Source: Elusimicrobiota bacterium (GTDB lineage Bacteria > Elusimicrobiota > Elusimicrobia > UBA1565 > UBA9628). Taken from it: 38,360 nt of DNA. Shown here in pieces: positions 6,400-23,223 of the stretch. A program made the translations under genes and the position numbers. Location of the stretch: positions 1 through 38,360 of the forward strand of contig JABEUV010000143.1 of assembly GCA_013044195.1 (NCBI GenBank). The letters are read 5' to 3'. The notes below the pieces were generated by a model. That model did no database searches, had not been told where the DNA came from, and saw only the letters and a program-made list of their open reading frames with translations. Positions within the stretch are counted from its first letter, which is position 1; every line of letters starts with the position of its first letter.

Positions 6400-8694
<2,295 letters not shown>

Positions 8695-8746
8695 GGGATT
8701 TTTCAAAAGCGCGGCGAATCCAGTGTAATGTCGAGGACCCGCGCAG

Positions 8747-9601
8747 TCAAGGGCCCACGAGCCGCTGGAAATCGTCGCGTGCACGCAGGGCCTCGAAATC
8801 GGCGTCGTCGCGCGCCTTTGCGCGCAGTGTGGGATCCAAGCGCAGGGCGGCGGTCAACTCCGCGACCGCCTGGACGATCTGGCCGGTCAAAGTCAGAAAA
8901 GCGGCGTCTTCGTAGCGCGTGACGGCCAGTTCCGGGGCCAGCGCCGCGCCCGTCGCCGCCTCGGCCGCCGCGGAGTCGATGTCGCCGGCCTGGAAGAGAA
9001 GGCGCGCGTTCTGCGCGTGGGCGAGCGCGCGGTTCACCCGCGCGCGCGGCGAATAGACGCGCGCGAGCTTGAACTTCCGGAGCGGTCCGCCGGAGCGCGG
9101 CGCGTAGACCAGCAGCGCGCACGTCGACAGCGCATTGAAATCCGCGCCCGCCAGACGCCAGGAAGGCCCGGGCCAGCCGTTCTTGACGCGCGCGTCCAAG
9201 GCGGCGGTCGACAGCAGGACTTCGGCTAAACCGGGCCGAGCTGCGACCTCGGTCCGCACGGTTTCCGGGTAGCCGGCGCGGGTGTAGCCCGCGTCGTTCA
9301 AGTCCTTCTCGGCCTTCGCGGCCAGGCGCTCGTCCCAACTGAAGGCGCCGTCCAGCTCCAAGGTCCAGTTCTGCTTCGCGTCTTCCGCGCCGGAAGGAAT
9401 CGTCAGCGTACCGACGCGCGTTTCGACGGGATCTCCGTGGAGTCCCGTGTCGAGCTTTGGATAAATCTTGAGTTCGAGCGCCACCGAGCAGGCATCGTCC
9501 CAGCCGAGGGCCGTCCATTCCGTACGCGCGACCGCTGAATCCTCGACGGCGGACGCCGGCGGAGCGCCGAGCATCGCGGCGGCGAACAGGAACGCGAGCA
9601 T
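8747..9601 (-). CDS. Exported protein with C-terminal TPR-like helices
   Basis: 284 residues from the ATG at 9601, where a signal peptide starts (MLAFLFAAAMLGAPPASA). A TATAAT hexamer lies exactly 6 nt upstream of this ATG, which also fits a leaderless transcript from that point. The middle is not recognised. The C-terminal third has TPR-like helices (AHAQNARLLFQAGDIDSAAAEAATGA, then AELTAALRLDPTLRAKARDD), ending in ALRARDDFQRLV, a common TPR-protein ending. It precedes the membrane kinase, whose exported part is also TPR-like, so the two may interact in the periplasm (inference). It is divergent from the potassium locus. No catalytic motif was seen. Confidence 0.75.
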   Translation of the reverse strand: MLAFLFAAAMLGAPPASAVEDSAVARTEWTALGWDDACSVALELKIYPKLDTGLHGDPVETRVGTLTIPSGAEDAKQNWTLELDGAFSWDERLAAKAEKDLNDAGYTRAGYPETVRTEVAARPGLAEVLLSTAALDARVKNGWPGPSWRLAGADFNALSTCALLVYAPRSGGPLRKFKLARVYSPRARVNRALAHAQNARLLFQAGDIDSAAAEAATGAALAPELAVTRYEDAAFLTLTGQIVQAVAELTAALRLDPTLRAKARDDADFEALRARDDFQRLVGP

Positions 9602-9634
9602 GTTCCAATTATAGGATTCCGGCATCGCTAAAAC

Positions 9635-9663
9635 TTGACAGAAAAAAAGCCGCGTGATAGCAT
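9635..9663 (+). promoter_or_regulatory. Sigma-70-type promoter of the potassium locus
   Basis: A perfect TTGACA (9635-9640) is followed after 17 bp by TAGCAT (9658-9663, four of six matches to TATAAT). Transcription would begin near 9670, at the 5' edge of the riboswitch. The spacing and position make this the likely promoter for the porin-kdp unit. Confidence 0.65.
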
Positions 9664-9665
9664 GT

Positions 9666-9811
9666 ATGCCGTAGCCTAAGCCGCCCGCCCTTCCTGGCGC
9701 GCGGCGCGGGGGACCCGGACTCCCTGGAGACAGGGACGGGGCGAACGAGGGCGGGCAACCGTCCGAGGGGCCACTTCCAAGGCCTAGCCCGTCAGCTAAC
9801 CTCGTCGGCAT
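9666..9811 (+). ncRNA. c-di-AMP riboswitch (ydaO/yuaA class)
   Basis: The untranslated leader contains the hallmark CCCGTCAGCTAACCTCGTCGGC block (positions 9788-9809), matching the conserved 3' part of ydaO riboswitches (CCCGACAGCTAAC in characterised members). A closing stem pairs ATGCCG (9666-9671) with CGGCAT (9806-9811). Between them are the GACAGGGACGGGG segment and a GGCC/GGCC hairpin, in the order seen in this class. Members bind two c-di-AMP molecules and usually turn expression off when it is abundant; potassium transporters are classic targets. Downstream kdp genes make the assignment very plausible. Recognition is from memory of the consensus, without a covariance-model search. Confidence 0.85.
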
Positions 9812-9888
9812 TTGGGAGGGTGATGTTCGGCCCGCGCGTGCGCGCGGCGCGGGAAATCCCCCACTTCGTGCCCTTTGGGGGGTGCTGT
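9812..9888 (+). promoter_or_regulatory. Riboswitch expression platform with start-masking hairpin
   Basis: Two hairpins lie between the aptamer and the porin start. The first pairs CCCGCGC (9831-9837) with GCGCGGG (9847-9853). The second pairs CCCCC(A) (9858-9863) with the G-run at 9876-9882, which is also the likely ribosome binding site, 6 nt before ATG 9889. No U-run follows either stem, so control of translation or Rho-dependent termination is more likely than intrinsic termination (inference). Confidence 0.5.
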
Positions 9889-11349
9889 ATGCCCGCGTCT
9901 CGCGTCGTCGTTGCGCTGTTCCTCTTTTTGGCCGCGGCCGTTTCCGTACACGCCCAATCTTCTCCGGAATCCTCCGACGCGGCCTTGCGCCGTCAGGTTC
10001 AAGACCTACAGAAGCGGCTGGACCAATTGGAAAAGGAGGTCGCGGCCGGCGCCGCCGGCGCGCCGCAGGTTCCCGTCTCCACGCAGGCCGCCGCGCCCGA
10101 ACCGCTGGAGTTCGCCGACTTCACCTGGCTCAACGGCAATAGCCGCGAGGGCGACACGCCCCTCGACACGAAGTACTTCACGCCCGAAGTGCTGGTGGAC
10201 GTCAGCTATGTCGAGGATTTCAACCACCCGAAGGATCATTCCATCGTGGGTTCGGCGGAGACGGGACGCAGCAACGAGTTCCAGGTCCAGCAGTTCGGTT
10301 TGGGCGGCGACTTCCATTACGACAACGTTCGGGCGCGGTTCATGACGCAGTTCGGTCTCTACTCGACGATGACGCCCAACGACGACCCGAGCGCCGCGCG
10401 CGGCCAGGGCAATCTGGCCAACGCCTACCGCTATCTGTCCGAGGCCAACGGCGGCTACCACTTCGACGTGGGCAACGGCGTCAACGTCGACGCGGGCATC
10501 TTCCTGTCCTACATCGGCCTGTTCAGCTACTACAACTCCGAGAACTGGGCCTATCAGCCTTCCTACGTGTCGGCCAACACGCCGTGGTTCTTCAACGGCG
10601 TGCGCGTGCAGACCTTTCCGACCCAGCATTGGAAGTCCGAGTTCTGGATCATCAACGGCTGGCAGTCCTACGGCATGTTCAACGAGATGCCCGGCTTCGG
10701 CACCCAGCAGCTGTGGCGTCCGAACGGACGGGTTCAGCTTCTGACCAACGACTACTGGGGCTACGACACGCTGGGCGTGCCCAGCCGCCAACGCTTCCAC
10801 AGCGACAACAGCTTGGAGGTCAAATACTACGATGACCCCGAGCGGCTCCTCGACAAGCAGGCTTTTTCCCTGACGCTCGACGCGGGCTGCGAGAGCGGCG
10901 GCGGGGTCAGCTGCAACGGCACCTCGTCGACGCCGGCGCAGCAGTTTCTCGGCTTCATGTTCTACAACCGCACCTGGTTCGACCACGACCTGTTCGGCTT
11001 GACCTTCGGCGGCGGCGGCATCACCAATCCCGGGCGCTACCTGGTGCTGGAGCCGCAGATCAACGGTGCTTCGGCGGCGACCGGCTCGCCTTATTTCACG
11101 GAGAACCCCGGTCAGCAGTTCCGCGCCTGGGACGCGTCGGCCACCTTCGACTACATGCCCAACCGCTTCCTGACCTGGCGCGTGGAGTTCGACCACCGCG
11201 AGTCCAACGTGCCTTACTTCTCCGGTCCCGGCGGCATCACGCCGCCCGGCGGCAACACGGGCGCACCCGGCTCCTTTGTGTCCGGTTGGACGCCGGACCT
11301 AAGCAAGCGGGAAAACCGGATCAACTTGGCGATGCTCATCCATCTTTGA
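9889..11349 (+). CDS. Outer-membrane beta-barrel porin (BBP2-like)
   Basis: 486 residues from ATG 9889, where a signal peptide begins (MPASRVVVALFLFLAAAVSVHA). A short coiled coil follows (RRQVQDLQKRLDQLEKEVAA), as in several porins with a periplasmic trimer stalk. The remainder alternates aromatic and polar residues in strands with glycine/aspartate turns (FQVQQFGLGGDFHYD, GIFLSYIGLFSYYNSENWA, WRVEFDHRESNVPYF) and ends near a strand, MLIHL. It resembles the putative beta-barrel porin-2 family. As the first gene after a c-di-AMP riboswitch and directly before kdpFABC, it probably lets potassium or another small solute cross the outer membrane for Kdp (inference). An ATG 69 bp upstream is rejected because it lies inside the riboswitch platform. 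Confidence 0.8.
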   Translation: MPASRVVVALFLFLAAAVSVHAQSSPESSDAALRRQVQDLQKRLDQLEKEVAAGAAGAPQVPVSTQAAAPEPLEFADFTWLNGNSREGDTPLDTKYFTPEVLVDVSYVEDFNHPKDHSIVGSAETGRSNEFQVQQFGLGGDFHYDNVRARFMTQFGLYSTMTPNDDPSAARGQGNLANAYRYLSEANGGYHFDVGNGVNVDAGIFLSYIGLFSYYNSENWAYQPSYVSANTPWFFNGVRVQTFPTQHWKSEFWIINGWQSYGMFNEMPGFGTQQLWRPNGRVQLLTNDYWGYDTLGVPSRQRFHSDNSLEVKYYDDPERLLDKQAFSLTLDAGCESGGGVSCNGTSSTPAQQFLGFMFYNRTWFDHDLFGLTFGGGGITNPGRYLVLEPQINGASAATGSPYFTENPGQQFRAWDASATFDYMPNRFLTWRVEFDHRESNVPYFSGPGGITPPGGNTGAPGSFVSGWTPDLSKRENRINLAMLIHL

Positions 11350-11374
11350 GCGCGGCGGACCCAGGGAGACTATC

Positions 11375-11458
11375 ATGCAGGACGCGATTTATCTGGGAAT
11401 GATCGTGGGCGTGCTCGCGCTGTGCGAGCTGTATGTGCGCTTTCTGTCGAGGCTATAA
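11375..11458 (+). CDS. Small membrane peptide preceding kdpF
   Basis: 27 codons, ATG preceded by a good ribosome site (CAGGGAGAC) about 6 nt away. The product is a single hydrophobic helix (LGMIVGVLALCELYV) with a charged end, RFLSRL. It ends 1 nt before the start of the KdpF peptide, so the two are almost certainly cotranslated. It resembles small helices I have seen near kdpF in other phyla, but I cannot name a family. It may be an extra KdpF-like stabiliser of the Kdp complex. Too short for most gene finders. Confidence 0.6.
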   Translation: MQDAIYLGMIVGVLALCELYVRFLSRL

Positions 11459-11459
11459 C

Positions 11460-11543
11460 ATGACCGACATCGTCCTGGCCGTCGTCTCGTGCGGTCTGAT
11501 CGCGTACCTGTTCGCGGCCATGCTCTGGCCCGAGCGCTTCTAA
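11460..11543 (+). CDS. kdpF: KdpF, small subunit of the Kdp potassium pump
   Basis: 27 codons encoding one membrane helix with the typical KdpF ending YLFAAMLWPERF (KdpF proteins usually end in YLxxALLxPExF). KdpF sits between KdpA and KdpB and stabilises the complex in the inner membrane. It begins 1 nt after the stop of the preceding 27-residue peptide and lies 16 bp before kdpA, as expected for kdpFABC. Confidence 0.85.
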   Translation: MTDIVLAVVSCGLIAYLFAAMLWPERF

Positions 11544-11559
11544 GATTGGGAGAATCTCG

Positions 11560-13287
11560 ATGACTGGGCTGAGTTTTTTGCAGTTCGTGTTGATCTTCGG
11601 CACCCTTCTGCTGACTACGAAGCCGTTAGGCGCCTACATGAAGAAGGTGTTCGGTGGCGAGCGCACCGTCCTGACGCCCGTCGTTGGGGCGCTGGAGAGT
11701 TGGATCTACCGCCTGTCCGGGATCGATCCGGGCGAGGAGATGAACTGGCGGCGCTACTGCGCGAGCGTGCTCGCGTTCAGCGCCGCGGGAGCCGTCATTC
11801 TTTACGTCCAACTGCGCTTCCAACAGTATTTGGGCCTCGACCGCGCGGGCGCTTCCGGCATCGATCCGGCGCTCGCGTTCAACACGGCCGTGAGCTTTAT
11901 GACGAACACGAACTGGCAGGCCTACTCCGGCGAGACCGCGATGACGTACGTCTCGCAGATGACGGGGCTCGCCTACCACAACTTCGTGTCGGCCGCGGCG
12001 GGCATCGCGGTCGCGGTCGCGGTCATGCGCGGATTCACGCGCGCGTCGTCGTCGACGCTCGGCAATTTCTGGGCCGATCTCGTGCGCGGCTGTCTATTTC
12101 TGCTCCTGCCGTTGTCGATCGCGGGCGGCCTCTTTCTCGTCTCGCAGGGCGTGATCCAGAACTTCAAGCCTTACGTGAAGGCGCGGACGCTCGTCGGCGC
12201 GGAGCAGACGCTCCCGATGGGGCCCGTCGCGTCGCAGGAGATCATTAAGCAGGTCGGCACCAACGGCGGCGGCTTTTTCGGCGCGAACTCCGCGCATCCG
12301 TTCGAAAACCCCACGCCGTTGACGAACTACGTCGCCATGCTCGCGATCTTCTTGATTCCGGCCGCGCTCACGTACCAGTTCGGCCTGATGGCCGGCGACA
12401 CGCGCCAGGGCTGGGCGATCTTCGCCTGCATGTCCGTGTTGTTCTTTGCCGGTTTCCTGGCGGCGAATTATTACGAGCAGAAGGGCAATCCCATCCTCGC
12501 CGCACACGGCGCCGATCAGGCCCAGAGCGCGAACTCGTCCGGCGGCAACATGGAGGGCAAGGAGGTTCGCTTTGGGATCGCGTCGAGCGCGCTGTTCGCG
12601 ACGATGACGACCGACGCATCCTGCGGAGCGGTCAACGCCCAGCACGACAGCTTCACGCCTCTGGGCGGGTTGGTGCCGCTGTTCAACCTGATGCTCGGCG
12701 AGGTGATCTTCGGCGGCGTCGGTTCGGGCTTCTACGGGATGATCCTGCTGGTCGTCGTCACGGTGTTCATCGCGGGCCTGATGGTCGGCCGCACGCCCGA
12801 ATACCTGGGCAAGAAGATCGAGGCGCGCGACATGAAATACGCGACGCTCGGCATCTTGATTCCGTCCTTCGTGATCCTGGGCCTGGCCGCCTGGGCGGCC
12901 GTGCGCCCGTCCGCGCTGATGAATCTGGGCAATGCGGGACCGCACGGGCTCTCCGAAATCCTTTATGCGTACAGCTCCGCCGTCGGCAATAACGGCTCGG
13001 CGTTCGGGGGCCTCAGCGCCGACAACTGGTTCTTCAACAACACGACCGGCTGGGCGATGCTGCTTGGGCGTTTCTTCATCATCGTGCCGGTGCTGGCGCT
13101 CGCGGGCTCGCTGGCTGGCAAGAAGCGCGCGCCGGAGTCGCTGGGAACATTCCCCACGCACACGCCTCTGTTCGTCGCCTTGCTGGCCTCGGTGACGATC
13201 ATCGTCGCGGGGCTCACGCATTTCCCGGCCCTGTCGCTCGGTCCCATCATCGAGCACCTCCTGATGCTGTCCGGCAAGCTGTACTAA
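11560..13287 (+). CDS. kdpA: KdpA, potassium-translocating channel subunit
   Basis: 575 residues, close to the usual length of about 560. KdpA is related to SKT-type potassium channels and has four pore loops. All four are visible: [55 protein letters not shown] and [14 protein letters not shown]. It selects K+ with micromolar affinity at the periplasmic side and passes it to KdpB. The start ATG has GGGAG about 6 nt upstream. It is followed after 4 nt by kdpB. No defect is visible. The unit is probably repressed by c-di-AMP through the upstream riboswitch. Confidence 0.97.
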
Positions 13288-13291
13288 AACC

Positions 13292-15328
13292 ATGGACAAT
13301 TCCCCGAAGCGCCGCGCCGCCGCCGATCTCTGGCAGGGTCCGATCGTCAAGACTGCCCTCGTCGATTCGTTCAAGAAGCTGGACCCGCGCCATCTTGCGA
13401 AGAACCCGGTCATGTTCGTCGTCGAGGTCGGCTCACTCGTCACGACGTGGTTCTGGATCGCCGGCCTGAGGGGCGGGGACCCGGAGACCGGCTTCGCCGG
13501 GCAGATCACGCTATGGCTGTGGTTTACAGTGCTGTTCGCCAACTTCGCCGAGGCGATGGCCGAGGGCCGCGGCAAGGCCCAGGCTGACTCTCTGCGCAAG
13601 ACGAAGACGGAGACTGTCGCCAAACGCTTGGTCGGGGGCGGTAAAACGGAAATCGTCAGCGCGGCCGAACTGCGCAAAGGCGACGTCGTGCTCGCCGAGG
13701 CCGGCGACGTCATTCCGGCCGACGGCGAGGTCGTCGAGGGCATCGCCTCGGTCGACGAGTCGGCCGTCACCGGCGAGTCCGCCCCCGTGATCCGAGAGAG
13801 CGGCGGCGATCGGTCGTCGGTCACCGGCGGCACGAAAATCAATTCGGACTGGATCAAGATTCGCGTGACCGCGAACCCCGGCGAGGGCTTCCTCGACAAG
13901 ATGATCTCGCTCGTCGAGGGCGCGCAGCGCCAGAAGACGCCCAACGAGATCGCGTTGAACATCCTTCTTGCGGGCCTGACGTTGATCTTCATCGTCGTGC
14001 TGATGAGCCTCCAGGCCTTCGCGATCTACTCGGGCGGGCCGGTGTCCGTCGTCACGCTCGTCGCCCTGCTCGTCTGCCTGATACCGACGACGATCGGCGG
14101 CCTGCTGTCGGCCATCGGAATCGCGGGCATCGACCGCCTGATGCAGAGCAACGTGCTGGCGATGTCGGGCCGCGCGGTCGAGGCCGCCGGGGACGTCGAC
14201 TGCCTCCTCCTTGATAAGACCGGCACCATCACGCTCGGCAACCGCATGGCGACGGAGTTCATCCCCGCTCCGGGCGTCACTTTGGAGGAACTGGCTCTTG
14301 ACGCCCAGCTTTCCAGCCTCAGCGACGAGACGCCGGAGGGCCGCTCGATCGTCGTGCTCGCCAAGCGGTTTGTTCCGAAGCCGACGAATATTCAGGATCG
14401 AGGGATGATCTTCGTTCCGTTCACCGCGCAGACGCGCCTGTCCGGCGTGAATGTCGGCGACGTCTCGATCCGCAAGGGCGCGGTCGACGCGGTCGCGGGC
14501 CTGGTGGACCGGATGCCGCCGGAATTGACCGCGGCCGTCGAGAAGATCGCTCGTTCCGGCGGTACGCCGCTTGCGGTCGCGCGCGACGGCAGGGCGCGCG
14601 GCGTGATCCACCTCAAGGACGTGGTCAAGGGCGGCATCCGTCGGCGCTTCGAGCAGCTGCGCGCCATGGGCATCCGCACGGTGATGATTACCGGCGACAA
14701 CCCGCTGACTGCGGCCGCGATCGCCGCGGAGTCCGGCGTCGACGACTTTCTTGCGCAAGCCACGCCGGAGAAGAAGCTGTCGCTGATCCGCCAGGAGCAG
14801 TCCAAGGGACGTCTTGTCGCGATGGTCGGCGACGGCACCAACGACGCGCCGTCGCTGGCGCAGGCCGACGTGGGCGTCGCGATGAACACCGGCACCATGG
14901 CCGCGAAGGAAGCCGGCAACATGGTCGATCTCGACTCGAATCCGACGAAGCTCATCGAGATCGTCGAGGTCGGCAAGCAGCTGCTGATGACGCGCGGGGC
15001 GCTGACCACCTTCAGCGTCGCCAACGACGTTTCGAAGTATTTCGCCATCATCCCCGCGATGTTCATGGGGCTGTTCCCGGAGATCGCCGCGCTCAATGTG
15101 ATGCGCCTGCACTCCCCGCACTCGGCGATCCTGGCCTCGGTGATCTTCAACGCCTTGATCATCGTCGTCCTGATCCCGCTAGCGCTGCGCGGCGTCAAAT
15201 ACCGGGCCTGGGGGGCGCACGCGGTGTTGCGCTACAACGCGCTTGTCTACGGCGTCGGCGGACTGATCGCGCCGTTCATCGGCATCAAGCTGATCGACAT
15301 GCTTCTCGTCGCGGCTCATCTGGGATAG
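13292..15328 (+). CDS. kdpB: KdpB, P-type ATPase subunit of the Kdp pump
   Basis: 678 residues, normal for the family. Actuator motif TGES at 160-163 (Ser163 matches the inhibitory phosphorylation site Ser162 of E. coli). Phosphorylation motif DKTGTIT with Asp308, [13 protein letters not shown], and [18 protein letters not shown] in the P domain are all present. Membrane helix 5 carries NDVSK, Asp579 and Lys582, matching the coupling dipole Asp583/Lys586 of E. coli. It hydrolyses ATP to drive K+ import with KdpA and KdpC in the inner membrane. Starts 4 nt after kdpA and ends 3 nt before kdpC. A degenerate paralogue lies at 19322-21064. Confidence 0.97.
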
Positions 15329-15331
15329 AAC

Positions 15332-15907
15332 ATGAAACTCTTCAAGCAGTCGTTTTTGATGAACATCTGGCTGACGATTCTCCTGGGACTTGCCTATCCC
15401 GTCCTCATGACGGTCTTGGCTCAGGTCCTATTCCCGCGCCGCGCGAACGGGAGCCTCATCATGCATGGAGGAAAAGTCGTCGGCTCGGAGTTGATCGGTC
15501 AGGCGTTCGCCGCTCCGAAGTACTTCCACGGCCGTCCCTCGGCCGCCGGAAGCGGCTACGACGGCTTGCAGTCGGGCGGTTCGAACCTGGGCCCGACCAG
15601 CAAGGCGTTGATGGCGCGCGTGGATGGCGACGTCGCGCGCGAGCGCAAGGCGGAGGGTCGTGCCGACCCCGTTCCGGTCGACCTTGTCACCGCGTCCGGT
15701 TCGGGCCTCGACCCGGATATCAGCCCGTCGGCCGCGCTGTGGCAGATACCGACCGTCGCGAAGGCCCGCGGCCTGGACGAATCCGCCGTGCGCGCTCTTG
15801 TCGAGAAATACACCGTGGGACGCACGTTCGGCCTTTTGGGCGAGCCGCGCGTCAATGTGCTGAAACTCAACCTCGCGCTCGACGCTTCGACGGCGAGGGC
15901 CCCTTGA
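15332..15907 (+). CDS. kdpC: KdpC, accessory subunit of the Kdp pump
   Basis: 191 residues, as usual. One N-terminal membrane helix ([21 protein letters not shown]) is followed by a soluble domain with the family blocks [46 protein letters not shown] and [10 protein letters not shown]. KdpC bridges KdpA and KdpB and raises apparent ATP affinity. It is the last gene of the canonical kdpFABC block; phosphoglucomutase follows after 105 bp. Confidence 0.96.
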
Positions 15908-15936
15908 GCCGCGCGGCGACGGGAGCGCTACTGGCA

Positions 15937-15966
15937 CCCGGCCGATGATCGAAGACGGCGGCCGGG
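15937..15966 (+). repeat. Perfect hairpin between kdpC and pgm
   Basis: CCCGGCCG (15937-15944) and CGGCCGGG (15959-15966) form an 8-bp stem with a 14-nt loop in the 105-bp gap after kdpC. No T-run follows, so it is not a standard intrinsic terminator. It may act as an mRNA 3' stabiliser or processing site separating kdpFABC from the genes after it. Confidence 0.45.
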
Positions 15967-16012
15967 ACGCATCTGGATTGCGCTCCGCGTCTTAATCATG
16001 CGATAACGAGTC

Positions 16013-17656
16013 ATGAGCATTCATCCGAACGCCGGGCAGAAGCCCGCGACGTCCCAGCTTATCGATGTCCAAAAGTTGATCGCGGCGTATTTCGACCGCA
16101 CGCCGGATCCGTCCGTCGCCGCCGAGCGCGTCTCCTTCGGCACGTCGGGTCATCGCGGCAGCGCGCTGCGTGGGTCCTTCAACGAGGCGCACATCGTCGC
16201 GATCACCGAGGCGATCTGCCGCTACCGCAAGAAAGAAGGCACGGACGGTCCGCTCTTTCTGGCGCGCGACACTCACGCGCTTTCCGCGCCCGCGCAGACC
16301 ACCGCGCTGGAGGTTCTGGCCGCGCGCGGCGTGGAGGTGAGAATCGACGCGGCCGACGGCTACACGCCGACGCCGGTCCTGTCCCATGCGATCCTGACGT
16401 ATAACAAGGGTCGCAAGACCGGTTTGGCCGACGGCATCGTGATCACGCCGTCGCACAATCCGCCGGAGGACGGCGGATTTAAATACAACCCGACCGACGG
16501 CGGACCGGCGGACACCGGCGCGACGAAGTGGATCGAGGCGGAGGCCAACCGACTATTGGAGTCGAAGCTTGCGGGTGTGGCGCGGCTGACGCCGGACAAG
16601 GCGCTCAAGTCCGCGACGACGCGGCGTCACGACTATCTGACGGCCTACGTCGACGATCTGGGTTCGGCCATCGACTTCGCGCCGCTGGCCGGCTCGGGCT
16701 TGAAGCTGGCGGTCGATCCGTTGGGCGGGGCGGGTGTGGCGTATTGGCCGCGCATCGCCGAGCGCTGGGGGCTTCCTCTGGAAGTCTTGAGCACGACGGT
16801 GGACCCGACGTTCCGGTTCATGTCGTTGGACTGGGATGGCAAAATCCGCATGGACTGCTCGTCGCGTTATGCGATGGCGGGCCTCATCGCGCACGCGGAC
16901 CGCTACAATGTGGTCCTGGCCTGCGACACCGACCACGACCGTCACGGCATCGTCGCGCGCGGCACGGGCCTGCTCAACCCGAACCATTATCTGTCCGTCG
17001 CGATCGACTATCTGTTTCGCCGTCGCGACGGCTGGAGCGCGCGCGCCGGGGTGGGCAAGACCATGGTGTCGAGCGCGATGATCGACCGCGTGGCCGCCGG
17101 CCTGGGCCGGACGCTCTACCAGGTTCCCGTCGGCTTCAAATGGTTCGTGCCGGGGTTGATCGACGGCTCGCTGGGCTTCGGCGGCGAAGAAAGCGCGGGC
17201 GCGTCCTTCCTGCGCCGCGACGGCTCCGTGTGGACCACGGACAAGGATGGAATCGTCCTGTGCCTGCTGGCCGCGGAGATGACGGCGCGCGAGGGAAAAA
17301 ACCCCGGAGAGCTTTACCGCGGCTTGACCGCCCGCTTCGGCGATCCCGTCTACGAGCGCGTGGACGCTCCGGCCACGCCCGCGCTGAAGTCCGCGCTACT
17401 CAAGCTCTCGCCCGAGGCGCTGGGGGCCACGGAGCTGGCCGGCGAGAAAATCTCGGCGGCGCTGACGAAGGCGCCCGGCAACGGCGCGGCCCTGGGCGGC
17501 CTCAAGGTGGAGACGGCCGGCGGTTGGTTTGCCGCGCGCCCGTCCGGCACCGAGGACGTCTATAAAATATACGCGGAGAGCTTCCGCGGCGCCGACCATC
17601 TGCGCCGCATTCAAGACGAAGCGCGCGCCTTGATCGCGGGGTTGCGGGCGGACTGA
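16013..17656 (+). CDS. pgm: Phosphoglucomutase (alpha-D-glucose phosphate-specific)
   Basis: 547 residues, the size of E. coli Pgm (546). It interconverts glucose-1-phosphate and glucose-6-phosphate through a phosphoserine. The active site TPSHNPPEDGGFKYNP is present with Ser147. The metal loop DTDHDRHG, substrate loop GEESAGASF and C-terminal phosphate-binding RPSGTEDVYKIYAE are intact. N-terminal FGTSGHRGSALRGSFNE is typical. It lies between kdpC and a KdpD-EIIA fusion on the same strand, only 23 bp before the latter, an unexpected place for a central-carbon enzyme. The pgm gap contains a hairpin; I see no convincing separate promoter. Confidence 0.95.
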   Translation: MSIHPNAGQKPATSQLIDVQKLIAAYFDRTPDPSVAAERVSFGTSGHRGSALRGSFNEAHIVAITEAICRYRKKEGTDGPLFLARDTHALSAPAQTTALEVLAARGVEVRIDAADGYTPTPVLSHAILTYNKGRKTGLADGIVITPSHNPPEDGGFKYNPTDGGPADTGATKWIEAEANRLLESKLAGVARLTPDKALKSATTRRHDYLTAYVDDLGSAIDFAPLAGSGLKLAVDPLGGAGVAYWPRIAERWGLPLEVLSTTVDPTFRFMSLDWDGKIRMDCSSRYAMAGLIAHADRYNVVLACDTDHDRHGIVARGTGLLNPNHYLSVAIDYLFRRRDGWSARAGVGKTMVSSAMIDRVAAGLGRTLYQVPVGFKWFVPGLIDGSLGFGGEESAGASFLRRDGSVWTTDKDGIVLCLLAAEMTAREGKNPGELYRGLTARFGDPVYERVDAPATPALKSALLKLSPEALGATELAGEKISAALTKAPGNGAALGGLKVETAGGWFAARPSGTEDVYKIYAESFRGADHLRRIQDEARALIAGLRAD

Positions 17657-17679
17657 AGCGCTGTTACACTGACTCCGCG

Positions 17680-19317
17680 ATGAGCGTTCTGAGCGTCGAG
17701 GAGTTGATCTCCAACCTTAAGTATTCGAAGGAGAGCCCGCTGCGCGTCTACCTGGGCGCGGCGGCCGGGGTCGGCAAGACGTTTCGAATGCTCCAGGACG
17801 GCAATCTTCTGCGCTCGCGCGGTGTCGACGTCGTCATCGGCTATCTGGAGCCGCACGATCGCCCTGAAACCGCCGCTCAAGTGCGGGATGTTCCCGAACT
17901 TCCTCGAAAAAAAGTCTCCTACAAAGGGGTGACGGTCGAGGAAATGGACCTGGACGCCCTGCTGGCGCGCAAACCCCAGGTCGCTTTGATCGATGAGTTG
18001 GCGCACACGAACGCCCCCGGCTCCAAGAACGCCAAGCGCTGGCAGGACGTCGAGACCTTGCTGGCCGCGGGCATCGCCGTGTTCTGCACGGTAAACGTCC
18101 AGCACATAGAGAGCGTCGGCGACATCGTCGAGAAGTCTTCCGGGATCTCCGTGCAGGAGCGCGTGCCGGACTCTTTTTTCCGTCTGGCCAAGGAAATGGT
18201 CATAGTCGACGTCAGCGTCGACGAACTGATTGGACGCCTAAAGGACGGAAAAATCTACCGAGCCGACAAGGTTGAGCGCGCGCTGGAAAGTTTTTTCACG
18301 CGCGGCAATCTTTCGACCCTGCGGGAGCTGGCGCTGCGCGAGCTGGCCGACGACGTGGAGCAGAAAGGCAAAGAGGACCGCGAGCGCGACACGCGCGGCG
18401 GCGCCAGCTCCTCGCTGAAGATGCTGCTGGCGCTCAGCGGCAACCCGGAGGCGAAGCGCCTTCTGCGCATCGGCGCGCGGCTGGCGGGGCGCCGCGATGC
18501 CAAGTGGTACGCGGTTGCCGTCAAGGCGCCGGATGCGACGCCGGCGGACGCGGGCATCGGCGGCGAGCTTGAGAAAAATATGCGTTTCGCTCGGGAGTTG
18601 GGCGCCCAGGTCGTCGAGCTAAAAGGGCGGCGCGTGGCCGACGCGCTGATCGACTTCGCCGCAAGGGAGGGCGCGACCGAGATCGTCATCGGCACGTCCG
18701 CCCGGGGCTGGTGGGATCGACTCTGGCGCGGCTCGATCGCCGAGCAATTGATGCGCAAGGCGCCGCATCTGGCCCTGCACGTGATTCCGGTCGGGCGCGA
18801 CGCGGAGGAGCCGGCCGCGGCCAGGACGTACGCGCCCGGAGCGTTTCTCCTGTCGAACTACTTGCCGGCCGAACGCGTTCTAGCGGGACTTCGCGGCGTC
18901 GAGACGATCGAGCAGGCGATTGCGATGTTGGTCGATCATCTCGCGCAGGTCAACCCGGATTTGCGCGATAACCGGCGCGTCTTTTTGGACGCGGTACTCC
19001 AGCGCGAGCGTCTCGACAGCACGTTCCTGGACACGGGCATCGCCATTCCTCACGCTTCGAGCGTCGAGGGCATCGTCGACGTGGAGGCCGTGCTTGGCCT
19101 CTTTCCCGAAGGGCTCTCCGCCGGCCCGGATAAACGAAAGGCGTTCCTGGTACTTCTTTTCCTGTCGCCGCTCGTGGGTCGTTCTCTGCACATGAAGTTC
19201 CTTCAGCGCATCGCGCGGGTGTTCGGCGACGAGACGACGGTGCGGGAGATCGCTTTCTGTAAGACGGGCGCGGACGCGCATGAGCGCTTGAGAGCCGTCG
19301 AGTCCGGACTGCGTTGA
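17680..19317 (+). CDS. KdpD sensor/USP fragment fused to PTS EIIA domain
   Basis: 545 residues. Residues 20-225 are the KdpD N-terminal domain: Walker A GAAAGVGKT (26-34), GYLEPHDRPET, the block ALIDELAHTNAPGSKNAKRWQDVE and FCTVNVQHIES. Residues 245-390 are a universal-stress-protein domain (VIGTSARGWWDRLWRGSIAEQLMRKAPH). The KdpD membrane helices, GAF and histidine-kinase domains are absent. Residues 395-545 are instead a PTS EIIA (type 2/Ntr) domain with LDTGIAIPHASS; His458 matches the phosphorylated His. E. coli PtsN (EIIA-Ntr) is known to bind KdpD, so this fusion may hard-wire that contact. No kdpE is in the window. A dead KdpB paralogue follows after 4 nt. Confidence 0.9.
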   Translation: MSVLSVEELISNLKYSKESPLRVYLGAAAGVGKTFRMLQDGNLLRSRGVDVVIGYLEPHDRPETAAQVRDVPELPRKKVSYKGVTVEEMDLDALLARKPQVALIDELAHTNAPGSKNAKRWQDVETLLAAGIAVFCTVNVQHIESVGDIVEKSSGISVQERVPDSFFRLAKEMVIVDVSVDELIGRLKDGKIYRADKVERALESFFTRGNLSTLRELALRELADDVEQKGKEDRERDTRGGASSSLKMLLALSGNPEAKRLLRIGARLAGRRDAKWYAVAVKAPDATPADAGIGGELEKNMRFARELGAQVVELKGRRVADALIDFAAREGATEIVIGTSARGWWDRLWRGSIAEQLMRKAPHLALHVIPVGRDAEEPAAARTYAPGAFLLSNYLPAERVLAGLRGVETIEQAIAMLVDHLAQVNPDLRDNRRVFLDAVLQRERLDSTFLDTGIAIPHASSVEGIVDVEAVLGLFPEGLSAGPDKRKAFLVLLFLSPLVGRSLHMKFLQRIARVFGDETTVREIAFCKTGADAHERLRAVESGLR

Positions 19318-19321
19318 ACGC

Positions 19322-21064
19322 ATGATTGCCCGCCGACCGTCTCTTGAGGCGTTGGCGGCGGCGGTGCGCGGGCTGCGTCTGCGCGCCGCCGTTCGCCGTC
19401 CGGCGGTGCTCGCGCTGGAACTGGCGGCGGCAGCTTCGGCGTGGAGCGCGTATGCCGCGCCGGAGGGCCGCGCGGACGCCGCGGCTTTGGGAGCGGCCGC
19501 GTTGGGCGCGGCCTATTTTCTCGGCCTGTGTGGGAACTTGGCGGAAGCGCGCGCGCTCGAACAGGCGCGCGCGTGGCGGGAGGCGGGCCGCGGCCTACGC
19601 ACGCGTCATGCCTTCGCCGATGGAACTGATGAGGCGGCCGACGCGGAACTTTTGAGCCCCGGAGACGCAGTCGTCATCGCCGCCGGCGAGATGATCCCGG
19701 CCGACGGGGTCGTCATTGACGGGGCCGCGACCGTCGACGAGTCGGCGCTGACCGGCGAGTCCGCGCCCGTCCTGCGGGAGGCCGTTGCGCCGCGCGACCG
19801 CGTGATCGGCGGCGCGCGCGTGCTCTCCGATCGGTTGAAAATACGCGTCGACGGACCCCCCGGCGCGGGCTTGTTGGCGCGACTGGCCGTTCTATTGGAC
19901 GCGTCTTTGGGACGCGCGGCCGGCCTCGAGACGGCGCTGGCCGCGGCGGCGCTTCTGCCGGCGGTGTTCGTTCTTGCCGTTCATCGCGAGGCTCTCGCGG
20001 CGGCGCGTTTCGCCGCACGTCCGGACGCGGCGTTCGGAGCGCTGGCCGTGTTCCTTCTCGCGCTGACTCCGACGGCGCTTCCGGCGCTGGCCTTCGCGAC
20101 CCGCTCGTCATCGACGCGCCGTTTGCTGGCACGGGGCTTGCTCGCGCGCGATCCAAGCGCGGCCGAGGACGCCGCTCGCGCCGATCCCGTGGTCGTGGAG
20201 GAGGATGCCGCGACGTTCCGGCGCCGTGCCGTGGAGTTCGTTCCGGCGCCGGGAATCTCGCAGAATATTTTGGCCGACGCGGCCCAACTCGCGGCGCTGA
20301 TCGACGAGACGCCCGAAGGACGCAGCCTTGTCGCGTTGGCGCAAGCCAAAGGCATGCGCGGCCGGCGGCTTGCGGATATACCGGATCGCCGTTTCGTGCC
20401 GCTGTCGGCGCACACGCGCGTCAGCGGTTTGGACGCGGGAGATTTGATCTATCGCCGCGGTCCCGCGGCGACGATCGAGCGTCTGGTCGGCCGTTTTCCG
20501 CCGGAGTTGGAGGTCGCCGTCGCGCTCATGCAGCGCGACGGCGACGAAGCGATCGCGATCGCGCTCGGCGGAAAGGTGTTGGGCGTCGCACGATTGCGCG
20601 AGCCCGCCGACGGCCTCTCGGCGCGCGTGCGCCGCTTGCGCGCGTCCGGCCGTCGGAGCGTGCTTGCCGCGCCGGTTCCGTCTCCGGCACTGCGCGGGTG
20701 GGCCGACGCGCTGGGCGTGGAATTCGCCGATGCGCGCGCGCTTGCCCAATCGGGCGCGACGTTCGCGCGAGGACTTCGGACGTCGCCTCGCGCGGAGGCG
20801 TCGATTCTAAACCTGCGCGGCGACCCGGCGCTTTCCGTCGCCGCGGTCGACGAGGCGCTCGCGGCGCGCCGCGCTCGCGCCGTTGCCGACGGGGCGTCCC
20901 TGTTCAGCGACGCCGCGAAAGCCGCCGCGGCGGCTTTCGCTTTCTGCGCGACGGCGCGCGCCGGAACCATCGGCGTCTCACCGGAGCAGGCCTTCGCGTT
21001 GGCGGCCTGGAGCCTTGCCGCGCCGCTGGCGCTTTGCGTCGCGGCGCTGGCGGGTTATATTTAG
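19322..21064 (+). CDS. Catalytically dead KdpB paralogue (pseudo-P-type ATPase)
   Basis: 580 residues, uninterrupted, colinear by eye with KdpB at 13292-15328. Kept: GNLAEARALEQARAW (Kdp[16 protein letters not shown]), AGEMIPADGVVIDG, DESALTGESAPV with TGES at 144-147, LTPTALPAL, VEFVPAPG and [14 protein letters not shown], and a DAAK (Asp530/Lys533) matching the KdpB DVSK dipole. Lost: DKTGT is VVVEEDAATF near residue 293, so there is no phosphorylatable Asp; TGDNP is absent; GDGTND and its flank are deleted, explaining most of the 98-residue shortening. It cannot run a P-type cycle. Membrane helices are predicted near both ends and around 200-260. The 4-nt gap to the KdpD-EIIA gene suggests coupling and a regulatory role. 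Confidence 0.82.
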   Translation: MIARRPSLEALAAAVRGLRLRAAVRRPAVLALELAAAASAWSAYAAPEGRADAAALGAAALGAAYFLGLCGNLAEARALEQARAWREAGRGLRTRHAFADGTDEAADAELLSPGDAVVIAAGEMIPADGVVIDGAATVDESALTGESAPVLREAVAPRDRVIGGARVLSDRLKIRVDGPPGAGLLARLAVLLDASLGRAAGLETALAAAALLPAVFVLAVHREALAAARFAARPDAAFGALAVFLLALTPTALPALAFATRSSSTRRLLARGLLARDPSAAEDAARADPVVVEEDAATFRRRAVEFVPAPGISQNILADAAQLAALIDETPEGRSLVALAQAKGMRGRRLADIPDRRFVPLSAHTRVSGLDAGDLIYRRGPAATIERLVGRFPPELEVAVALMQRDGDEAIAIALGGKVLGVARLREPADGLSARVRRLRASGRRSVLAAPVPSPALRGWADALGVEFADARALAQSGATFARGLRTSPRAEASILNLRGDPALSVAAVDEALAARRARAVADGASLFSDAAKAAAAAFAFCATARAGTIGVSPEQAFALAAWSLAAPLALCVAALAGYI

Positions 21065-21091
21065 ACGAAGCCTGAGAAAATCAACGAACGC

Positions 21092-21589
21092 TCAGCGGGA
21101 AGGGCGGGCTTCCAGGGCGGCGATGCGGCGGGCGTGGTCGTCGAGGACGCGGGGAAGGAGCACCGACTCTCGCCAGAGAGTTTCCATTCGGGAGACGGCG
21201 GTGTCCATGGTCTTGGACACGTCGCTGCGCAATGCGCGCATCTCGCCGCGTAGATCGTCGCCCAGGCGGTCGATGCGGACGTTGGTCTTCACGATCTCGT
21301 GCGCCAAGCGCCGAGTGGAGGCCGCGAGTTCTGTTTTGACCGACGAAACGTCCGCTTTAACACTGGCAAGGTCGGTCTTCACGCCGGCAAGATCGGTCTT
21401 CACGCCGGCGAGGTCGGTCTTCACGCCGGCGAGGTCGGTCTTCACGCCGGCGAGGTCGGTCTTCACGCCGGCGAGGTCGGTCTTCACGCCGGCGAGGTCG
21501 GCTCTCACGTCGGCAATGTCGGATTTCAGTTCGGACTTCAGGGCGAGCAGGTCGCCTTTCACGACTGGGGTGGGATCAAAATCGGACAT
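21092..21589 (-). CDS. Coiled-coil protein with perfect heptad repeats
   Basis: 165 residues. After a short N-terminus it has six identical heptads DLAGVKT (about residues 31-72) flanked by diverged ones, then a long charged helix (THE pattern RIDRLGDDLRGEMRALRSDVSK) ending in HARRIAALEARPSR. The Leu/Val spacing gives a continuous parallel coiled coil; no signal peptide or membrane helix is seen, so it is probably cytosolic. A TATTAT hexamer lies 6 nt before the ATG, suggesting a leaderless start; an AGGAGG sits too far upstream (12 nt) to be an ideal ribosome site. Function unknown. It converges on the pseudo-KdpB gene 27 bp away. Confidence 0.8.
   Translation of the reverse strand: MSDFDPTPVVKGDLLALKSELKSDIADVRADLAGVKTDLAGVKTDLAGVKTDLAGVKTDLAGVKTDLAGVKTDLASVKADVSSVKTELAASTRRLAHEIVKTNVRIDRLGDDLRGEMRALRSDVSKTMDTAVSRMETLWRESVLLPRVLDDHARRIAALEARPSR
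21367..21513. repeat. 21-bp tandem repeat (seven units)
   Basis: Seven consecutive 21-bp units with core GGTCGGTCTTCACGCCGG, the middle four identical and the outer ones with one to four changes. Each unit encodes one heptad (DLAGVKT on the minus strand) of the coiled-coil gene. Nucleotide-level identity indicates recent slippage or unequal exchange, so copy number may vary between strains. Confidence 0.92.
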
Positions 21590-21715
21590 AAGCGAATAAT
21601 ACCTCCTGCGAAGAGATCGACGCCAGGGTCGAAAGTCCCAGGGTCGTCTCTTTGTATACGCGTGAGGGGGCCAAAAAGTTCCATTCCAGCGCCGACGGAC
21701 GGAAAGCCGGGCGCT

Positions 21716-22234
21716 TTAGCGGGCGACGATAGCGGGGAAGCCGAGCAGTCGGCCGCTGCGGCGGCTCAGCGAGTAGCCGAGATCGAAGAGCACCGGATCG
21801 CCGTCCGGCACCGTGCCGCTGACGGAGAGTTCGATGCCGTCGACTTCGATGATCGCCCCGCAGGACGCGGCGCCGCCCGGCGGGCAGGCGCGCACGCCGA
21901 AGCGGGCGGCTTGCGCCTGAACCTGATAGGCGCCGCTCTGCGGATAGACGTGGTTGAGGCAGGTCTGAAGAAAAATGGCCGCCTGCTTGGCGTTGGCCGG
22001 GATGACGGCGCTGTCGCCTAGAGCCGGGCAGCCGGCGAAGACGTCCCGCGCAGGGATCTCGGAGCCTTCAGTGGAACGAGACGATTCGAGGCGCGCCGCG
22101 TTCTGGGTCGCGGCAAGGGGGGCTGCGTCGACGCCGGACTGGGCGGCGAGTTGTTGGAGGGCGGTTTGCGCGCGGGCGGCGGAAGCCAGGAGGACGGCCG
22201 CGGTCGCGGCCGAAAGAAGACTTTTCTTGTTCAT
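21716..22234 (-). CDS. Exported protein of unknown function
   Basis: 172 residues with a clear signal peptide (MNKKSLLSAATAAVLLASAARA, cleavage before QTA). The mature part has four cysteines (GCPALG, LQTCLNHVYPQ, RACPPGG, ASCGAII), which could form two disulphides, and a C-terminal beta-like stretch (IEVDGIELSVSGTVPDGDPVLFDLGYSLSRR). No family recognised. It stands alone between the coiled-coil gene and rlmF, same strand. A CACACT hexamer lies 6 nt upstream of the ATG, close to the TAnnnT pattern of other leaderless starts here. Confidence 0.7.
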   Translation of the reverse strand: MNKKSLLSAATAAVLLASAARAQTALQQLAAQSGVDAAPLAATQNAARLESSRSTEGSEIPARDVFAGCPALGDSAVIPANAKQAAIFLQTCLNHVYPQSGAYQVQAQAARFGVRACPPGGAASCGAIIEVDGIELSVSGTVPDGDPVLFDLGYSLSRRSGRLLGFPAIVAR

Positions 22235-22302
22235 GGGAAGAGTGTGCCCAAAAGACCCGCGACGGCCATAGGACTCCCGTCAACGTGGTCGATTGACGAA
22301 GA

Positions 22303-23223
22303 TCAGCCGCGACGGCGGCGCGCTCTCTCGTCGAGAAATGTCCAGGCGACGATGCGGCCGCGCTTGTGACCCGGCGCCAGCGGAAGAACGCGGCGCGTGA
22401 TGGCGCCGGCGCGCGTGAGCGCGCGCTCGACGCCCGTGAGGGTGGATTCCTTGGAGATCAGGATCGAAAACCAGACGATGCGCTCCCGAAATTCGACGCT
22501 CTCGTCGATCATGCGGCGCGCGAACAGGCCTTCGCCGCCTTCGCACCAAAGTTCCGTGCCGCGGCCGCCAAAATTCGACGGCGGCGTGCGCCCCGGAACA
22601 TCGCGGCCCAGCCCGCGCCATTTCCTCCGGGCGGCTTCTTGCGCTTGCGCGGCCGACGCGTAGAACGGCGGGTTGCATAGGCAGGCGGCGAACGTCTCGC
22701 TGGAGCGCACGACGTCGCGAAAAATATTGTCCGGTGAAGGCTGGAGGCGCAATTCTACGCCGGCCAGAAGCGGATTCGACCCGACAATTCGCTCCGCGCA
22801 GGCCAGAGCGGAGGCGTCCACGTCGCAGCCGACGAAGCTCCAGCCGTATTCGCCCCGGCCGATGATCGGATACACGCAGTTCGCCCCCACGCCAACATCG
22901 AGTACACGCACGCCGTCGCCGCGGGGCGGCGCGCCGGAATCCTCTGTCAGCAGATCGGCGACGCGGTGGATGTACTCGGCGCGACCGGGGATGGGCGGGC
23001 AGAGAAAGCCCGGCGGAATCTCCCAATGTTCCAGACCGTAGGCCTGCTTCAGAAGGGCGCGGTTAAGCGCCATGACCGCCGCGGGATCGGCGAAGTCGAT
23101 CGACGGGGCGCCGGCCACGTTGGGTGCGACAAAGACCGCGAGTTCGGGCGATACTCGGATGAGCGCGGGAAAATCGTAGCCCGCGCGGTGGCGATTGCGC
23201 TGGTGCAGCTCGGGTTTCGTCAT
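22303..23223 (-). CDS. rlmF: 23S rRNA (adenine-1618-N6)-methyltransferase RlmF
   Basis: 306 residues. The N-terminus carries RlmF signatures LHQRNRHRAGYDFPALI, SIDFADPAAVMALNRALL and IPPGFLCPPIPGRAEYIH. The SAM-binding loop is VLDVGVGANCVYPIIG, and the catalytic N6-adenine motif is NPPF within CLCNPPFYAS. It methylates A1618 (E. coli numbering) of 23S rRNA using SAM. It begins 13 nt after the stop of the SUI1-family gene on the same strand and is probably cotranscribed with it, grouping two translation-related functions. Confidence 0.93.
   Translation of the reverse strand: MTKPELHQRNRHRAGYDFPALIRVSPELAVFVAPNVAGAPSIDFADPAAVMALNRALLKQAYGLEHWEIPPGFLCPPIPGRAEYIHRVADLLTEDSGAPPRGDGVRVLDVGVGANCVYPIIGRGEYGWSFVGCDVDASALACAERIVGSNPLLAGVELRLQPSPDNIFRDVVRSSETFAACLCNPPFYASAAQAQEAARRKWRGLGRDVPGRTPPSNFGGRGTELWCEGGEGLFARRMIDESVEFRERIVWFSILISKESTLTGVERALTRAGAITRRVLPLAPGHKRGRIVAWTFLDERARRRRG

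Follow-up and report, generated by a model that had tools for sequence, protein, structure and literature searches.

Which signal reaches a KdpD protein that has neither a potassium-sensing membrane part nor a histidine kinase, and what does such a protein do in a potassium-pump operon? The question is raised by a gene on contig JABEUV010000143.1 of an uncultivated Elusimicrobiota bacterium (GenBank: GCA_013044195.1), from which we analysed a stretch of 38,360 nucleotides, here called the window. The gene (positions 17680..19317, + strand) belongs to a kdp operon and encodes a KdpD and a Usp domain fused to an EIIA domain of the phosphoenolpyruvate (PEP)-dependent phosphotransferase system (PTS). 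From the reading frame, Pfam and NCBIfam profiles and alignments, we read it, with a probability of roughly 55%, as a soluble short-type KdpD, which would be a serine kinase that inhibits the pump subunit KdpB and whose gate is the EIIA domain, through its phosphorylation by the PTS. The searches covered 340 genomes of the phylum, 72,556 plasmid records and one narrow contig scan beyond the phylum.

The frame encodes 545 amino acids without internal stops, and all three domains pass the curated Pfam cut-offs. The KdpD or atypical serine kinase domain (Pfam: PF02702; residues 19-226, positions 17734..18357, + strand) scores 295 bits against a cut-off of 26.1, the Usp domain (Pfam: PF00582; residues 247-362, 18418..18765, + strand) 54.2 bits against 24 and the PTS_EIIA_2 domain (Pfam: PF00359; residues 406-537, 18895..19290, + strand) 59.2 bits against 27. 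The phosphorylatable His458 (codon 19051-19053, + strand) lies in the motif GIAIPH of the EIIA domain. Compared by sequence with solved structures, the fusion gives E 1.1e-61 for the KdpD sensor domain 2r8r and E 7.1e-6 for PtsN structures (3urr). HisKA and HATPase_c were not found in the fusion with Pfam and NCBIfam, and Pfam gave no match there to the membrane domain DUF4118 or to GAF. The highest Kyte-Doolittle mean over 19 residues is 1.44, compared with 2.78 for KdpB, therefore a membrane helix is not expected. The preliminary description of this DNA, made without database searches, had proposed exactly this order of domains without histidine kinase or membrane helices, and both the Pfam profiles and the hydropathy bear it out; the profile support on which it had made the EIIA domain depend is present. 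With NCBIfam, the fusion scores 371 bits for the KdpD-like non-kinase potassium sensor model (NF038185, curated cut-off 550) and 337 bits for the histidine kinase model (NF007793), higher for the former and below the cut-offs of both. The short KdpD of Allomeiothermus is also under the NF038185 cut-off, with 407 bits. The fusion is the only PF02702 match in the genome, which is 92.36% complete.

It is extremely unlikely that an assembly or binning artefact joined two genes or two organisms here. The genome is split into 299 contigs, the fusion is known from one genome and its KdpD module and the KdpDs of close relatives share only about 40% identity, all of which would fit an artefact. Against this stand the single open frame, a composition in agreement with that of the bin, flanks that are syntenic with G021, a genome of the same genus, a KdpB with 87% identity to its counterpart in G013, which belongs to the same family, and the existence of parallel fusions. 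A sequencing fusion, which the preliminary description had named as the possible undoing of its reading, has left no sign and is unlikely, because the frame is continuous, the GC content by codon position across the EIIA part (0.705/0.411/0.767) is gene-like, the tetranucleotides of the contig agree with those of the bin and an EIIA domain is found again on a KdpD chain in two further genomes, G216 and G220.

As a serine kinase, the KdpD domain inhibits KdpB through Ser162; the isolated N-terminal domain of E. coli KdpD phosphorylates KdpB, for which residues 1-230 are enough, and KdpD/Usp forms that have no histidine kinase are found chiefly in species that lack KdpE (Silberberg et al. 2024, PMC11018627). 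In our alignment, Walker A (G32-K33-T34), Walker B (D105-E106) and R186 of the fusion are identical to GKT, D109/E110 and R190 of E. coli KdpD. On the side of the target, Ser163 in the TGES motif of the window's KdpB corresponds to Ser162 of E. coli, and the preceding glutamate (E161 in E. coli) is also kept. The retained KdpD half thus appears to have the residues of a KdpB serine kinase, and we infer that it would be active on the KdpB of its own operon. For this reason, the initially proposed output, through protein binding in place of a phosphorelay, is better replaced by a kinase output. A KdpE ortholog was not found in the genome, where the best match to the KdpE of a relative has 38% identity compared with 74-78% for the orthologs in G013 and G036.

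In the EIIA half, Arg57, Glu58, His73 and His120 of E. coli PtsN have identical counterparts. Enzyme I (EI), HPr, HPr kinase and RapZ are encoded in the genome on contig C75, and since EI, HPr and HPr kinase are present, phosphorylation of His458 is possible; we infer that it would occur. PF00359 is found at four further places in the genome. The Usp domain looks like that of E. coli (RIGAR-X8-WYAVA), and the alignment did not show in it the cyclic di-AMP (c-di-AMP) motif SXS-X20-FTAXY, which PMC4686210 gives for S. aureus. As the Usp domain lacks this motif and the membrane and GAF parts for potassium sensing are absent, EIIA is the only recognisable input.

Put together, the KdpD and Usp domains would form an atypical serine kinase with the inhibitory Ser163 of KdpB as substrate, and EIIA would be the sensory input that replaces the K+-sensing membrane and GAF part as well as the histidine kinase. 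His458 would receive its phosphate from the EI and HPr that this genome encodes, and the phosphorylated or dephosphorylated state of EIIA would switch the serine kinase in cis. Either high or low PTS phosphorylation, the sign could be either way, would permit phosphorylation of KdpB Ser163 and the pump would stop, so that PEP and sugar status or nitrogen status could set a post-translational shut-off of the Kdp pump. Transcription of kdp would be left to a c-di-AMP riboswitch, in which case a KdpD-KdpE relay would not be needed.

Relatives show how EIIA and KdpD come together elsewhere. A KdpD match at E <= 1e-60 was found in 39 of the 340 phylum genomes. Three of these, the window's genome, G216 and G220, carry an EIIA domain inside the KdpD frame; out of the remaining 36, 28 were covered by an EIIA profile search of the loci and eight were judged by frame length (740-927 amino acids). 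G216 and G220 are class-level relatives with the architecture KdpD-Usp-DUF4118-GAF-EIIA, in or beside the kdp locus. In the G216 protein, similarity to the histidine kinase model ends at position 665 of 895, at the start of the kinase half, and EIIA comes next. This is close to residue 663, at which Silberberg et al. (PMC11018627) cut away the kinase half of E. coli KdpD. Moreover, G216 has a separate histidine kinase and response regulator upstream of kdpABC. Because EIIA in G216 is on the chain without histidine kinase and a separate histidine kinase exists, EIIA goes with the serine-kinase chain and not with the histidine kinase. KdpDs without kinase half also occur without EIIA, in G219 (561 amino acids) and G333 (730 amino acids), and KdpD-Usp alone is found in G060.

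Beyond the phylum, a tblastn search of the plasmid records with the fusion matched 436 of them, one with a coverage of at least 80%, and among the best 40 of the 436 rows no match reached beyond residue 436 of the fusion. Among the matches listed in the narrow contig scan with the Usp-EIIA half there was one, in Frankia, which was weak (28% identity over about 94 residues).

In the order, KdpD is present in 18 genomes besides the window's. Five of these 18 kdp loci were not assessable owing to contig ends or genes too far apart; in 11 of the 13 assessable loci an unfused EIIA gene lies in or next to the kdp operon. Its position is mostly before the porin or kdpA, in G040 and G041 in the gap between kdpD and kdpA and in G007 directly before kdpD. 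In the latter locus (L060:7498-7968), kdpC, EIIA and kdpD are adjacent and the unfused EIIA ends close to the start of kdpD, which makes it a plausible intermediate type. No EIIA gene was found near kdpA in G042, where about 0.8 kb is visible, and in G046. The unfused EIIAs linked to kdp form one group in the tree (support 93/80, and 96/99 in a second set). The first EIIA tree was made without the domain of L049 and the second without L055, L084 and L104, which are long or weak rows. The link between EIIA and kdp genes as such is not new, as ptsN2 is found in the kdp operon of about 10% of alphaproteobacteria (PMC13104625); that the link recurs in the order favours a part for EIIA in the control of Kdp.

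The preliminary description had seen a Rosetta-stone case, in which the regulatory contact between PtsN and KdpD of E. coli has become one polypeptide. The fusion is real, and so is the link between EIIA and Kdp in gene order; the part that is not supported is the internalised E. coli contact. PtsN reportedly acts through the transmitter domain of E. coli KdpD, as stated in the title of Mork-Morkenstein 2017. As this reported target is missing here, the fusion is not simply the PtsN-KdpD contact made covalent, and G216, with EIIA on the chain without histidine kinase while a separate histidine kinase exists, also speaks against it.

EIIA domains occur in other fused or neighbouring contexts too. 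A CNNM transporter with a C-terminal EIIA domain is encoded at L049:4863-6410 (contig C27), and EIIA-bearing frames of 500-620 amino acids from eight other genomes fall into one clade in an EIIA tree that compares only the EIIA part. At L057:214-3283 (contig C100), a 361-amino-acid EIIA-bearing protein is located directly 5' of an APC-type permease of 665 amino acids. In L084 (contig C245), a DNA-binding HTH_17 domain is fused to EIIA, a possible PTS-controlled transcription regulator.

The KdpD module of the fusion groups with two short KdpD/Usp proteins, from G060 and Allomeiothermus (99/93; long branches). A grouping with 17 full-length KdpDs is disfavoured in the approximately unbiased (AU) test (p 0.025; long branches), and the placement is unsure once the two short proteins are left out; the second KdpD tree omits the duplicate rows L099 and L100. 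That a full-length KdpD native to the family was shortened in place was rejected, given this p value and the 87% identity of KdpB to that of G013 as against about 40% for the KdpD modules of close relatives; a swapped regulator would fit better. One could read the protein as an ordinary short KdpD/Usp serine kinase under the control of c-di-AMP, similar to that of Deinococcus geothermalis, to which EIIA adds little. Besides the grouping, the diadenylate cyclase encoded in the genome and the stimulation of the D. geothermalis short KdpD by c-di-AMP (PMC11018627) point in this direction. The active site of EIIA is kept, however, and EIIA sits on a serine-kinase chain again in G216 and G220. Furthermore, compared with the E. 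coli type and the S. aureus motif, the Usp domain looks E. coli-like and lacks that motif. On balance we regard EIIA as a mere passenger as quite unlikely.

The fusion belongs to a run of genes on the + strand, which consists of the riboswitch, a BBP2 porin, a possible kdpF, kdpA, kdpB, kdpC, pgm, the fusion and a pseudo-KdpB. A promoter-like site (TTGACA-17-TAGCAT, 9635..9663, + strand, 10 of 12 matches) lies just 5' of the riboswitch. It is the only one in 9400-22400, where about 1.2 are expected by chance, and a similar site is found 5' of the riboswitch in G021. The c-di-AMP (ydaO) riboswitch (Rfam: RF00379; 9657..9825, + strand) scores 53.4 bits with a cut-off of 38 and covers positions 1-134 of the 134 in the model. 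The first gene of the operon encodes the BBP2 outer-membrane porin (Pfam: PF07642, 145.9 bits; 9889..11349, + strand; dN/dS 0.088 compared with G021), whose start was set at a signal-peptide-like methionine. Two small open reading frames (ORFs) were read from the DNA in front of kdpA: one at 11375-11458 and a hydrophobic one of 27 amino acids (11460..11543, + strand), which is possibly KdpF. They are followed by kdpA (TIGR00680, 747.8 bits; 11560..13287, + strand), kdpB (TIGR01497, 1041 bits; 13292..15328, + strand), in which Asp308 is the phosphorylated aspartate, kdpC (Pfam: PF02669, 243.9 bits; 15332..15907, + strand) and the phosphoglucomutase gene pgm (TIGR01132, 862 bits; 16013..17656, + strand). 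The riboswitch would govern kdp via one long transcript.

Only 6 of 56 genomes of the order have the riboswitch, and it stands directly upstream in none of the relatives' kdp operons scanned with Rfam. In G013 it precedes a homolog of the potassium importer KimA (199 bits to 6s3k), and in G051 and G054 ORFs that look similar by eye. In G048, an nhaA-I RNA (Rfam: RF03057; L133:10302-10353, - strand) stands before an ORF (8330-10294) that, by eye, is KimA-like.

A comparison with G021 separates the parts of the operon. The locus of G021 contains the riboswitch, the porin, pgm, the pseudo-KdpB and the flanking genes, and both kdpABC and the fusion are absent; no KdpD match was found elsewhere in the G021 genome. 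The sequences immediately 5' and 3' of pgm are nearly the same in G021 and the window. Since the two missing blocks are not adjacent, kdpABC and the fusion were lost or gained separately, and their separate absence links the fusion with the pump rather than with pgm or the porin. In G023, the riboswitch, porin and pgm are found with two other genes in between and no Kdp part. That EIIA serves carbon metabolism together with the nearby pgm, and that Kdp is only its location, is very unlikely: pgm does lie between kdpC and the fusion, and porin and pgm are both kept in G021 and G023, but G021 keeps both while the fusion is absent along with kdpABC, and EIIB or EIIC domains were not seen with Pfam in the operon genes scanned.

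The pseudo-KdpB (580 amino acids; 19322..21064, + strand) keeps the TGES motif of the A-domain with Ser147, and DKTGT with its catalytic aspartate and other P-domain motifs are lost. Its copy in G021 is 80% identical, and the dN/dS of 0.26 between this copy and the one in the window suggests purifying selection; porin and pgm have values of 0.09-0.10. As a bolder extension of our reading, the pseudo-KdpB might be an alternative substrate or a sponge of the fusion kinase. Its retention in G021 without kdpABC or the fusion speaks against this as its only role; for the same reason, it is unlikely to serve Kdp alone as a decoy of the kinase, and the pure Kdp decoy was rejected. On the same strand, a frame with a repeated ARSVFTP-like heptad extends over 20883-21599, and a frame on the - strand (21092-21589) covers the same DNA.

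Several points weigh against a PTS-gated KdpB kinase. For the count of architectures that had been suggested at the outset, EIIA is indeed found inside the KdpD frame in three genomes, but the exact KdpD-Usp-EIIA form without membrane part is present in one genome only (1/340). In the alignment, the EIIA domain is without a portion of the loop that follows the His region, and it falls below the cut-offs both of the PtsN equivalog model (TIGR01419, 36.6 bits with 138.7 required) and of the curated FruA model. It forms a long branch, for which neither a grouping with the kdp-operon EIIAs (AU p 0.10) nor with those of G216 and G220 (p 0.084) is rejected. The single-sequence structure prediction was unusable, with a predicted local distance difference test (pLDDT) value of 38 and a predicted template modelling (pTM) score of 0.25. 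The riboswitch is not specific to kdp, since at the syntenic porin G021 (52.1 bits) and G023 (47.9 bits) have it before porin and pgm without kdp; an acquisition for Kdp was rejected on these grounds. Global folding of the leader RNA gave no excess stability (z -0.12). Finally, W39 of E. coli KdpD, which stacks on the adenine, is F in the fusion and Y in eight aligned relatives.

The last point also favours a protein without serine kinase activity, in which KdpD-Usp would dock as a scaffold or tether on KdpB or KdpABC and EIIA would act by binding on other partners or on the pump. PtsN-type proteins mostly act by binding, namely on TrkA, YcgO and KdpD in E. coli (PMC13104625). A phenylalanine at the W39 position may still stack the adenine, however, and the kinase residues other than W39 as well as the Glu-Ser target in KdpB are kept, neither of which a scaffold would need. 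We therefore consider this explanation unlikely and prefer the PTS-gated serine kinase.

Each single step of the proposed mechanism is known elsewhere; for a fusion of EIIA with the serine kinase, no published report was found in open-licence full texts. We tentatively suggest, with less confidence than in the kinase itself, a new signalling arrangement, in which a PEP-driven phosphohistidine relay and the serine-kinase off-switch of a P-type ATPase may be united in one polypeptide, with a riboswitch for transcription, and in which EIIA may have been joined to a kinase-less KdpD in at least two architectures. It is unsettled in the field why PtsN touches Kdp and what controls the serine kinase of KdpD in forms without the potassium sensor. 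EIIA on a serine kinase without histidine kinase separates the two outputs of KdpD, and suggests that PTS status may influence how the pump is switched off after translation, and not only the transcription of kdp.

Among the known systems, the short KdpD/Usp protein of D. geothermalis (PMC11018627) shares with the fusion the KdpD domain with Walker A and B, the Usp domain, the lack of membrane part and histidine kinase, the location in a kdp operon and the absence of a detected KdpE ortholog. It has no counterpart to the C-terminal EIIA, which makes up the last third of the window's protein, and the Usp domain without the S. aureus c-di-AMP motif is a further difference from short KdpD/Usp proteins. 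G216 and G220 likewise have, in or next to the kdp locus, a KdpD chain that lacks the kinase half and carries EIIA; unlike the window's protein, theirs keep the membrane and GAF sensor parts, and G216 adds the separate histidine kinase and response regulator. In alphaproteobacteria with ptsN2 in kdpABCDE operons and in the binding of PtsN to KdpD, an EIIA-Ntr-like protein is also tied to Kdp regulation; these are separate proteins (PMC13104625) and the action in E. coli is reportedly on the histidine kinase transmitter, whereas in the window the connection is covalent and the transmitter is missing. The kdpFABC system of Bacillus thuringiensis shares the c-di-AMP riboswitch upstream of a kdpABC operon and a truncated KdpD in or after the operon without KdpE (PMC6488665). 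The window's operon differs from this description: its first gene encodes a porin, the riboswitch also stands before porin and pgm in loci that have no kdp, and KdpD and EIIA form one protein. The combination of riboswitch and truncated KdpD is described from 12 species, seemingly restricted to Bacillales (Wang et al. 2019, PMC6488665). If our reading is true, the logic of a riboswitch plus a short KdpD extends beyond Bacillales.
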